The notes below the pieces were generated by a model that was not told the origin of the DNA, searched no databases, and saw only the letters and a list, made by a program, of their open reading frames with translations. The translations under genes were made by a program, and so were the position numbers. A DNA stretch of 36,016 nucleotides from Candidatus Eiseniibacteriota bacterium (lineage in GTDB: Bacteria > Orphanbacterota > Orphanbacteria > Orphanbacterales > Orphanbacteraceae), in the NCBI GenBank assembly GCA_024276995.1, contig JAJRWB010000005.1, positions 1 through 36,016 of the forward strand. Reading direction: 5' to 3'. Of the stretch, positions 33,137 through 36,016 are shown piece by piece; position 1 is the first letter of the stretch, and every line of letters starts with the position of its first letter.

Positions 33137-33210
33137 GGGCGGATAGCTCAGCCGGTTAGAGCGCCTGCCTTACACGCAGGAGGTCACAGGTTCGATCCCT
33201 GTTTCGCCCA
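33137..33210 (+). tRNA. tRNA-Val (anticodon TAC)
   Basis: Acceptor GGGCGGA pairs with TTCGCCC (one G-T), the D arm is GCTC/GAGC, and the anticodon stem is CCTGC/GCAGG with loop CTTACAC, giving anticodon TAC. The T arm is ACAGG/CCTGT with TTCGATC. The discriminator A is followed by CAC, so the 3' CCA is not encoded and must be added enzymatically. Confidence 0.97.
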
Positions 33211-33289
33211 CACCTGCGGGCGCAACTCGCGACCATGGAACCTGCTTTCAGAATCCCCTGTTTTTCATGGACTTAACCGGACAATTCGG

Positions 33290-33652: not shown

Positions 33653-34357
33653 ATGAAGAAAGGTCTGGTTCTCGGCATCGTCGCCATCGCAGTCGCCGGA
33701 CTCACCGGTCTGGCATCGGCCGGACTGCCGTGCGCGGCTTACTCGACGGCTACTCTCTCGGCTGTTCAGATCAAAGTCTGTTCGACCACGGACGTGATCT
33801 GGGACGGTCCGGGCGCCGCCGGCTATCTGAAGATCGACGTTACGGTCCATGACTGCCTGGACAACCCGGTGGACACCTGCTCGGTGCGCCTCGACATGAC
33901 CGCCGACTTCACTCCCGATCCGTCGCTCACCGGCGTGGGCGGGATTCTCTGCGGCACCGGTACGATGACCGCCGTGACCAATGCGAACGGTGCGGCGAGC
34001 TTCACCATCACCGGTGGCGGTGCCGGCGCGCTCGCGCTGAATTACACCATCACCGCCGAGTGCGCGATTCCGGAAGTGGAGCTCGCTTCCGTGTCCGACA
34101 CGGTCTGCGTGAAGTCGACCGACTTCAACGGCAACGGCGGCACCAACTTCTTCGACACGTTCAAGTACCTGCCCCAGCTCAGCTCGGGGACAGGCTACAC
34201 GGGCGACCTGGCCGGCTGCAGCTCTGCGAACGGGGTCAACTTCTTCGACACCTTCGTCTACCTGCCGGCGCTCTCAGGCGCGTATGCCTGCCCGTCGGGC
34301 GGCGTGACCCTCTCGAACGTGGGTACGCCCTCGTGCAGCGGTCCGCTCCTTCCGTAG
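33653..34357 (+). CDS. Secreted protein with Ig-like region and duplicated dockerin-like motif
   Basis: A 234-residue exported protein. The signal peptide is MKKGLVLGIVAIAVAGLTGL with cleavage likely after ASA. Residues about 24-150 are beta-rich and Cys-containing, with VTNANGAASFTITGGGAG, as in bacterial Ig-like domains. The C-terminal part repeats a calcium-loop motif 31 residues apart: DFNGNGGTNFFDTFKYLPQL (from Asp157) and ANGVNFFDTFVYLPALSG (Asn196 onward). Each resembles a dockerin half (DxNxxGxxNxxD), although the second loop lacks the leading Asp/Asn set. ATG 33653 is 11 bases after AGGAGG; ATG 33644 would be too close. It has its own promoters and terminator. Role unknown; surface assembly is a guess. 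Confidence 0.8.
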   Translation: MKKGLVLGIVAIAVAGLTGLASAGLPCAAYSTATLSAVQIKVCSTTDVIWDGPGAAGYLKIDVTVHDCLDNPVDTCSVRLDMTADFTPDPSLTGVGGILCGTGTMTAVTNANGAASFTITGGGAGALALNYTITAECAIPEVELASVSDTVCVKSTDFNGNGGTNFFDTFKYLPQLSSGTGYTGDLAGCSSANGVNFFDTFVYLPALSGAYACPSGGVTLSNVGTPSCSGPLLP

Positions 34358-34410
34358 ATAGGGAGCAAAGGCGTAGCGGCGGATCGCCGCCGAGGTCTTG
34401 AGAAACGAAC

Positions 34411-34443
34411 AACCTGCCCCTCCTGCAGGAGGGGCCGGTTTTC
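34411..34443 (+). terminator. Intrinsic terminator of the dockerin-like protein gene
   Basis: A perfect palindromic stem CCCCTCC/GGAGGGG (34417-34434, TGCA centre), flanked by AACC/GGTT as an outer stem, then TTTTCATT. It lies 53 bases after the stop codon. The T tract is short. Confidence 0.72.
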
Positions 34444-34459
34444 ATTCCCGGTTAACGGA

Positions 34460-34489
34460 TTGACGGGGAGGGACGATATCCTGTATAAT
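34460..34489 (+). promoter_or_regulatory. Strong promoter of an unexplained transcript
   Basis: TTGACG (34460-34465), 18 bases, perfect TATAAT (34484-34489). It lies just after the terminator of the preceding gene. No confident gene lies directly downstream. Confidence 0.8.
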
Positions 34490-34495
34490 GGAAAC

Positions 34496-34779
34496 AGAAG
34501 AGTCAAACGAGGAAAGGGGGTGAGCGGGAGAAAAAAGGCTACCACCATCGGGCAAGGCATCCGCCTTGTCGAGGGGGCGGGCCGGCTACGGCCCGCCTCG
34601 AGTTCCGGTAAGGAGCCGTTCCTTGTCTCCAATCCGGCTGGACGATCACAGTGTGAATGGATTCGCAATTCTGGGGAGTCCGGTGGCCGTCCGGGGGAAG
34701 GACGGAAGGGGAATGCTCTTTAACGTATTGTAACGAAGTGAGTTACAGGGGAAAAAAAGGAGAGGAAAGTTCCATTTTT
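34496..34779 (+). other. Hairpin-rich transcribed region of unknown function
   Basis: Downstream of the 34460 promoter come four inverted repeats: GGCAAGGC/GCCTTGTC (34551-34570, loop ATCC), a perfect GGCGGGCC/GGCCCGCC (34576-34597), CCGTCC/GGACGG (34687-34705 region) and TGTAAC/GTTACA (34730-34747 region). A long frame crosses this area (GTG 34520 to 34723), but its composition is dictated by the hairpins and it resembles nothing. It does not match tmRNA, SRP, RNase P or 6S as far as I can see. It could be a structured RNA or a leader for the small frame at 34623. It ends before the next promoter at 34783. Confidence 0.45.
34623..34733 (+). CDS. Possible 36-residue small protein
   Basis: TTG 34623 has TAAGGAG (34609-34615) seven bases upstream, one of the better ribosome-binding sites in the window. 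The frame reads SPIRLDDHSVNGFAILGSPV and then AVRGKDGRGMLFNVL after the initiator, and stops at TAA 34731-34733. It lies within the transcript expected from the 34460 promoter. No family is recognised and the length makes chance occurrence plausible. Confidence 0.28.
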   Translation: MSPIRLDDHSVNGFAILGSPVAVRGKDGRGMLFNVL

Positions 34780-34782
34780 CGG

Positions 34783-34811
34783 TTGACTTTCTAATCCGTC
34801 CCTGATACAAT
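34783..34811 (+). promoter_or_regulatory. Promoter of the second secreted protein gene
   Basis: TTGACT (34783-34788), 17 bases, TACAAT (34806-34811). The leader to ATG 34980 is about 160 bases and contains no convincing gene. Confidence 0.78.
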
Positions 34812-34979
34812 CTCACATGACCGTTAAGGTATCGTGCCTCCGGGCGTTTCGGAAGTCGGGAAGCTCTTCGAAGCGTGCGGGGAATGGCTGAAGCGATGGA
34901 CTGGGTCCCCAGAACGGAAGCCGGCGCGAATAGTCAGGTGAGATTCGAGTTCTAAACCTGTTTGGAAGGAGTTTTTGGA

Positions 34980-35513
34980 ATGAAAAAAGCTCTTGCTGTT
35001 GCGTTCCTTTGCGCAATTTTCGCGGGCTTTGTTGCCGCTCAGACGATCGAGCTGGACCTCGATGGTACTCCGGGCAACGGTCCCGATGTCGTTCCGGCCG
35101 CCGTTAGCGATTACATCAATGTCGATGTGTACATCAACGGCACGGGAATGCTCTTCTCGGCGAACTTCACGATCTGCAACCTGGACGGCTCGCTCGAGTT
35201 CCAGGGCTATGCGTACAACACCCCGTGGACGAACACGCCCCCGGTCGTGACGCCTCCTTGCGTCCTGATCCAGGCGACTGACTTCACGTTCGGCTCGCCC
35301 CTCGCGATGCCGTTCCTGCACGGAACCGCCACGTATCATGCGGCCGTCGATGCTTCGCTCGACGACCTCACGATCGATCTCGCCAACTCCGGCTGGTTCA
35401 ACGACCAGTTCCTGAGTGGTGCGTTCAGCGACTTCGTCGGCGGAAGCGTTCAGATCGGTTCGTCTGCCACCGAGCAGACCAACTGGGGCGCGGTGAAGGA
35501 CCTCTTCCGGTAG
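34980..35513 (+). CDS. Small secreted beta-sandwich protein, possibly cohesin-like
   Basis: A 177-residue exported protein. The signal peptide MKKALAVAFLCAIFAGFVAA is followed by mature QTIELDLDG. The mature part is rich in beta strands and small/aromatic residues: YINVDVYINGTGMLFSANFT, LEFQGYAYNTPW, and a late GTATYHAAVDASLDDLTIDL. The pattern (a constraint strand before a hydrophobic FSANFTI strand, later A-T-Y-H-A strand) recalls cohesin-type modules, but I cannot confirm it. ATG 34980 has AAGGAG eight bases upstream. It has its own promoter and a strong terminator. No enzymatic motif is visible. Confidence 0.75.
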   Translation: MKKALAVAFLCAIFAGFVAAQTIELDLDGTPGNGPDVVPAAVSDYINVDVYINGTGMLFSANFTICNLDGSLEFQGYAYNTPWTNTPPVVTPPCVLIQATDFTFGSPLAMPFLHGTATYHAAVDASLDDLTIDLANSGWFNDQFLSGAFSDFVGGSVQIGSSATEQTNWGAVKDLFR

Positions 35514-35556
35514 TCGAATACGACTGTCGCAGAAGAGTTTCTGCTTTGTTTGATAG

Positions 35557-35592
35557 GGCGATCCGGTTTCGACCGGATCGCCTTTTTCTTTT
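35557..35592 (+). terminator. Strong intrinsic terminator
   Basis: An 11-bp perfect stem GGCGATCCGGT/ACCGGATCGCC with a TTCG tetraloop (35557-35582), followed at once by TTTTTCTTTT. It lies 43 bases after the stop of the preceding secreted protein gene and insulates the next promoter. Confidence 0.95.
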
Positions 35593-35616
35593 CTCCGGTC
35601 CGTTCGCAATTTCCCG

Positions 35617-35646
35617 TTGACAGTTGAGAGAGCCTCTTCCTATAGT
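35617..35646 (+). promoter_or_regulatory. Promoter of the third secreted protein gene
   Basis: Perfect TTGACA (35617-35622), 18 bases, TATAGT (35641-35646). The start codon is 54 bases downstream, after AAGGAG (35685-35690). Confidence 0.82.
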
Positions 35647-35699
35647 AGCGGCAAAGCTCATGGTCTTTCCGGAAGGCGAATAACAAGGAGAAAATCTCG

Positions 35700-36016
35700 A
35701 TGGGAAATAGGCGTAACACGGTTTTGCGGATCGCGATGGCGGGTGGTTTCTCGTTCGCTCTTCTTCTCATGGCCGCGGGCGGGGTTTCGGCGCAAGCCTC
35801 CGTGATAATCGGATTCGATTCGAATGCCGACACCCTCTGCGATGGCTCTTCAGACATGAACGTCGTCGGAGCATCCGCCGGCGATCCGGTATCGATCCAG
35901 GTCTTCTGGGAGGCGGCGAGCACCGGCCTTTACTCGTTCAACTGCACGTTCTGCGTGGAAGATTCGACCATGGTGGATGTGGCGAGCGAGCTGTGGACGC
36001 CCGGCCAGGAGATTAC
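35700..36016 (+). CDS. Secreted protein, N-terminal part (runs off the window)
   Basis: Open from ATG 35700 to the window end with no stop: 105 residues visible. A long signal peptide (TVLRIAMAGGFSFALLLMAA, cleavage likely after VSA) is followed by SVIIGFDSNADTLCDGSS, then a beta-strand pattern GDPVSIQVFWEAASTGLYSF and CTFCVEDSTMVDVASELW. The last block has the look of a cohesin-like opening (a VSIQV strand, then a strand with paired hydrophobics before a VEDS turn), as in the preceding protein, but this is a guess from part of the domain. AAGGAG precedes the start by about ten bases. Confidence 0.8.
   Translation, partial: MGNRRNTVLRIAMAGGFSFALLLMAAGGVSAQASVIIGFDSNADTLCDGSSDMNVVGASAGDPVSIQVFWEAASTGLYSFNCTFCVEDSTMVDVASELWTPGQEI

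Follow-up and report, generated by a model that had tools for sequence, protein, structure and literature searches.

Organization of the P1-P2-P3 locus

The window, the whole stretch of DNA analysed here (36,016 nucleotides), is an entire contig (C49) of a 3.76 Mb genome (G000) that is 96% complete. Close to its right end, downstream of a tRNA-Val gene (33137-33211), three consecutive genes on the plus strand encode proteins with signal peptides, namely P1, P2, and P3. P1 (33653..34357, +) consists of 234 amino acids, comprising a signal peptide, an Ig-like domain of the Big_1/invasin-like type, and a C-terminal dockerin-like module. P2 (34980..35513, +) consists of 177 amino acids with a signal peptide, a single domain of predicted cohesin fold (AlphaFold, Foldseek), and a C-terminal tag. 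P3 (35700..36016, +) is a paralogue of P2, of which the first 105 amino acids are present before the contig end truncates the gene.

A promoter-like site lies 5' of each of the three genes, that of P2 at 34783..34811 (+), and terminator-like hairpins lie 3' of P1 (34416..34435, +) and 3' of P2 (35555..35584, +). These sites are consensus matches only. They are consistent with P1, P2, and P3 as monocistronic units, and the original prediction of three adjacent monocistronic secreted proteins holds on these features. Between the promoter-like site and the start codon, P2 has a conserved 5' leader (34817..34979, +). In an alignment of five loci, the leader contains the invariant blocks GGGAAGC and TGGGTCCCC; its covariation is weak, with 15 pairs showing double changes among the five sequences and many pairs broken, and the leader has no convincing counterpart in Rfam. 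Between P1 and P2 lies a further conserved intergenic element (34460-34640), in which a promoter-like TTGACG-18-TATAAT is followed by AGGGGGTG and GGCTACCACCATC; it is possibly a small RNA or a leader.

The final 77 bases of P3 (35940-36016) are common to the ends of three contigs, C49, C34, and C36, as would be expected if the assembly branched at a recently duplicated P3-type gene. On C34, P3 runs on to ATEDVSWGAIKELFR and a stop, and a further paralogue, P4, lies downstream of it. The C36 copy is interrupted by an in-frame stop and continues into a long multidomain protein, and the C30 copy is truncated.

The Ig-like domain and the two-repeat module of P1

The Ig-like domain of P1 spans about residues 25-155 (33725..34117, +) and is modelled by AlphaFold as a beta-sandwich, with pLDDT values by block mostly between 61 and 96. 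Besides the modelled strands, its assignment draws on a Big_1 match in Pfam that stays under the cut-off (E 9e-4 for P1, 1.5e-5 for the best relative) and on Foldseek matches that include invasin, intimin, and pilus chaperones. Beyond this domain, P1 contains the two predicted calcium-loop repeats, TNFFDTF and VNFFDTF, at a spacing of 31 residues. Repeat 1 (34121..34180, +) is formed by the loop DFNGNGGTNFFD, a full DxNxNGxxNxxD calcium loop, and the following helix. Repeat 2 (34205..34273, +) is formed by DLAGCSSANGVNFFD and a helix, and this loop is indeed degenerate, as had been proposed, with a three-residue insertion and lost ligands, while the FF dyad is kept. Both repeats are placed by the family alignment and by the AlphaFold model, in which the helices after the loops span residues 167-176 and 199-207 and the module part has a pLDDT of 66-72. 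Shuffled P1 sequences yield an exact 6-mer repeat in about 0.5% of shuffles. Judged from the sequences, the NFFDTF repeat of P1 is not a product of chance, because 41 distinct proteins of the phylum share the two-repeat module.

All seven genomes analysed from the small phylum to which the window belongs contain the module, in 4-11 copies per genome, and none of 53 genomes outside it does. Among 84,980 species genomes scanned, the module turned up at 11 loci, all within three metagenome assemblies. The EF-hand-like loops that the original prediction called for are conserved family-wide: in repeat 1, the 12-residue calcium loop is complete and its ligand positions are held in 41/41 distinct modules, always with D1, G4, and D12, with N/T/S at position 3, D/S/N/T at position 5, and F/Y at position 10. 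For repeat 2, a length of 12 residues is found in 16/41 modules; the rest carry 1-7 extra residues and have often lost ligands. In P1 and its positional orthologues, the loops of repeat 2 are degenerate and NFFD or NFQD is kept.

Across the family, the F/F/D/T/F/L/P residues are conserved. Position 10 is aromatic in both repeats, and the residue pair before the final loop Asp is F followed mostly by F (F10, usually F11). Classical dockerins recognise cohesins through the residue pair that precedes the final loop Asp (Ser-Thr). In the module, the aromatic pair persists where the calcium ligands decay, and because of this we infer that the putative binding face may be under stronger selection than calcium binding. 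The pivotal role of the recognition pair in dockerins has been discussed (PMC5301203), and the pair mutated in PDB 2ccl is S45/T46.

The module resembles Dockerin type I (PF00404) in its tandem pattern of a 12-residue DxNxDGxxNxxD loop, complete in repeat 1 and often altered in repeat 2, with a helix modelled at modest confidence after each loop, and in its C-terminal location on secreted proteins. Unlike Dockerin type I, it remains below the Pfam cut-off, has an aromatic NFFD for the Ser-Thr pair, followed by TFxYLPxL, often shows insertions or lost ligands in repeat 2, and is found in one small phylum only. Dockerin_1 matches 3 of 15 module members, with a best E of 0.021, none over the cut-off, and P1 has no match. 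The best PDB match of the module family profile is the dockerin 2y3n of a GH48 enzyme (E 0.036), and an hhalign comparison with the genome's own Dockerin_1 repeats gave 8% and no significant match. A relation between the module and Dockerin_1 is suggested by pattern and sub-threshold scores.

In the X-dockerin dyad of type II cellulosomal scaffoldins, an Ig-like module immediately precedes the dockerin. By analogy, the layout of P1, an Ig-like and then a dockerin-like module, resembles this dyad, which differs from P1 in that the Ig part of P1 is Big_1/invasin-like.

The predicted fold and the C-terminal tag of P2 and P3

The AlphaFold model of P2, built from 13 sequences, has a mean pLDDT of 86 and a core of 94-97. 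When the model is compared to the PDB using Foldseek, ranks 1-37 are all cohesins or cohesin-containing chains, headed by 6kgc_A (E 1.1e-9, probability 1.00, target TM-score 0.75), with the non-cellulosomal cohesin 2xdh at rank 14. P2 is therefore a predicted cohesin-fold beta-sandwich. P3 is homologous to P2, and its cohesin fold is assigned via this homology only. The cohesin fold is a jelly-roll related to CBMs, and fold similarity is no proof of binding.

P2 thus resembles cohesins (PF00963; PDB 6kgc, 4ums, 2xdh) in its predicted fold, with a target TM-score of about 0.75 and E values of 1e-9 to 1e-7; it differs in being a small one-domain protein with a tag at its end and in its sequence, in which no similarity is detectable. 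The Pfam cohesin model (PF00963) matches 0 of 13 members of the P2 family, a PDB sequence search with P2 gave nothing useful, and in an hhalign comparison the P2 family reached 2% with the FlgD cohesins, which is no significant match. The cohesin-like character ascribed to both neighbours of P1 hence stands for the modelled fold of P2, and for P3 by homology, but not as a Pfam sequence match.

Two settings are seen for the P2-type domain, namely small proteins that carry the tag and larger chains of about 1000 residues. Of the latter, at least one (on C20, 980 amino acids) has a FlgD-Ig end. P2 and the C34 version of P3 terminate in (S/T)ATExxSWGxVKxLFR, also written TATEExSWGxVKxLFR, directly before the stop. 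In P2, the tag WGAVKDLFR (35484..35510, +) is predicted to be helical (model helix 165-175). The original prediction had not included this element. The six-frame translation of G000 contains 21 copies of its core, WGxxKxL[FY]R, compared to 0 in a reversed control; a stop follows directly in 20/21 copies, and one Arg precedes the stop in the remaining one. The tag is found in 7/7 genomes of the phylum, with 7-32 copies each. Outside the phylum, five other families carry 6-25 copies each, and eight more genomes have a single match apiece; it is missing from the remaining 173 of 193 genomes scanned, and the reversed control never exceeds one.

A signal-peptide-like N-terminus is present in 52 of 55 tagged proteins longer than 130 residues and in 16 of 56 background genes, an approximate contrast obtained with a crude test that allowed alternative starts for the tagged set. 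The bodies of tagged proteins differ and include lectin-like, PPC, choice-of-anchor X, and cohesin-fold types. No NCBIfam match falls on the tag region in nine tag-bearing proteins, and no NCBIfam or Pfam model lies over the tag in the proteins scanned. The tag is apparently undescribed. From its placement on exported proteins, it is possibly a new sorting or anchoring signal.

Like the T9SS C-terminal domains (Por_Secre_tail, PF18962; CHU_C, PF13585), the tag is a C-terminal element of Sec-exported proteins in bacteria with a T9SS, and the P2-type domain pairs with either a FlgD-Ig end or the WG tag. Unlike these domains, it comprises about 16 residues with a predicted helix and is not an Ig-like domain; P1 and P2 have no recognised match to Por_Secre_tail or CHU_C. 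We tentatively consider, as an idea with somewhat less than even prospects, that the tag defines a new C-terminal sorting or anchoring class in several phylum-level lineages, which would serve as an alternative to T9SS C-terminal domains and here display sockets of cohesin fold at the cell surface to a phylum-specific NFFD-type dockerin. The recurrent 16-residue tag, seen on dozens of unrelated secreted proteins, provides a testable prediction on protein sorting in these bacteria, and it would make many unannotated secreted proteins recognisable.

Two further tagged loci were observed in G000. At L213 (C77, 17830-17859), a stop lies directly 5' of the tag (TQT, stop, ETSWGGIKKLFR, stop), which severs the tag from a body of more than 280 residues. 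At L045 (C24, 81437), a tagged protein is built of two related halves, each with a tag-like end, the internal one being AQWGALKAMFR; the motif can therefore also be internal, in a looser form.

Gene neighbourhoods and the proposed pairing

The P1-P2-P3 order is kept across five genera. In four genomes (G001, G002, G003, and G004), the three genes adjoin the same ABC/YqgF/MltG genes, with a single gene inserted between P1 and P2 in G003, and in G005 they are located behind MltG, as in the window. A cohesin-type neighbour accompanies 14 of 42 dockerin-like genes, 13 times directly downstream on the same strand, and 28 have no adjacent cohesin gene. At locus L227, a dockerin-like gene and a tagged cohesin-fold gene are divergently oriented.

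A separate arrangement is seen at eight loci in five genomes, where a large InhA/M36-like peptidase ending in the module (assigned by Pfam for two of the eight) is followed by a cohesin-FlgD gene on the same strand, with gaps of -10 to 54 bp. The cohesin domains of the eight downstream FlgD-Ig proteins score 17.7-34.9 bits in Pfam, where the cut-off is 24.1; three exceed it (34.9, 30.3, and 26.1), one is just under it (24.0), and four are lower. These cohesin-FlgD neighbours carry a recognised T9SS C-terminal domain, and SprA, the outer-membrane component of the T9SS, occurs in 7/7 genomes of the phylum and in 0/14 control genomes. As orthologous loci are not independent, the loci amount to at least three independent arrangements of dockerin-like and cohesin-type genes. 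The conserved synteny of P1-P2-P3 and the separate peptidase/cohesin-FlgD pairs lend independent support to a cohesin-dockerin reading.

We postulate that P1-P2-P3 probably constitute a small non-cellulosomal cohesin-dockerin-like set that holds secreted proteins at the surface. Following Sec export, P2 and P3 would be brought to or held at the cell surface via their C-terminal WGxVKxLFR tag. P1, an Ig and dockerin-like didomain, would then dock into the P2/P3 sockets in a calcium-dependent manner, through its calcium-folded repeats, with the pair before the last loop Asp (F10 and usually F11) standing in for the classical Ser-Thr pair. By analogy, the secreted InhA/M36-like peptidases, which have the same Ig and dockerin-like C-terminus, may dock on the T9SS-exported cohesin-FlgD proteins. 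The proposal is supported by the conservation of repeat 1, the fold matches of P2, the synteny, the cohesin-type neighbours, SprA, and a precedent in Cloacimonadota (PMC8542988). Counting against it are the lack of sequence homology between P2, linked to cohesins by predicted fold only, and cohesins; a module that never exceeds the Dockerin_1 cut-off and is modelled at pLDDT 66-72; the degenerate repeat 2 of P1; and the 28/42 dockerin-like genes without a cohesin neighbour. Of the small non-cellulosomal cohesin-dockerin pair envisaged originally, the parts are supported and the pairing itself is plausible.

The module is located at or near the C-terminus in 40/41 copies, 2-31 residues from the end. 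In the copies read, it is found on unrelated bodies and never together with the WG tag or a FlgD-Ig tail. It could accordingly be a phylum-specific C-terminal sorting or anchoring module read by a secretion or attachment component, with calcium merely folding it and no cohesin binding as a dockerin, a non-classical role that the lost ligands of repeat 2 would suit. A C-terminal position is, however, usual in classical dockerins too, and the dockerin-like pattern of the loops, together with the recurrent location next to cohesin-type genes, argues against this explanation, which we regard as unlikely. The size of the P2 family, with 7-42 matches per genome (the weakest covering the tag only) and far more members than dockerin-like genes in several genomes, would fit P2 and P3 as ordinary adhesin- or CBM-like surface beta-sandwich proteins of cohesin fold without dockerin binding. 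P1 would then be an unrelated Ig adhesin, and shared regulation would explain the neighbourhood; the promoter-like and terminator-like sites of the individual genes fit as well. Given the cohesin-specific Foldseek ranking and a gene order kept in five genera, we hold this to be unlikely as well. A reading of the repeats as a calcium-stabilised spacer, and of the array as a recent, functionless paralogous expansion, as the C36 duplicate with its in-frame stop and the truncated C30 copy might suggest, is very improbable in view of positions conserved across five genera and of the conserved F/F/D/T/F/L/P residues.

The proposed cohesin-dockerin-like set can be compared with known non-cellulosomal systems, namely the Archaeoglobus cohesin 2xdh and the complex of Cloacimonadota, in which dockerin enzymes occur with a scaffoldin-like cohesin protein carrying a surface-attachment CTD (PMC8542988). 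Shared features are a cohesin and a dockerin outside cellulosomes, peptidases bearing the dockerin, and a T9SS-type CTD for surface attachment. In contrast to these systems, no multi-cohesin scaffoldin is found among the loci read, P1 combines Ig and dockerin-like modules without an enzyme, and a second type of C-terminal tag is present. A cellulosome was considered and rejected because these loci contain no scaffoldin, CBM, or glycoside hydrolase; P2 and P3 are single-domain proteins, and the partner enzymes found for the module are the InhA/M36-like peptidases. Searches of the open-licence literature for Eisenbacteria with dockerin or C-terminal sorting, and for Krumholzibacteria with T9SS, found no papers. 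If the proposal is true, cohesin-dockerin-like pairings gain a further kind, distinguished by its aromatic recognition motif, from a phylum that metagenome assemblies represent here, and the cohesin-dockerin principle would extend beyond cellulose degradation to peptidases and adaptors held at the surface.

Elsewhere in G000, contig C1 (L019/L032, 14159-26082) carries four clustered cohesin domains of Pfam level, with FlgD-Ig-like ends, and one protein of this cluster combines dockerin-like repeats and a cohesin in a single chain.
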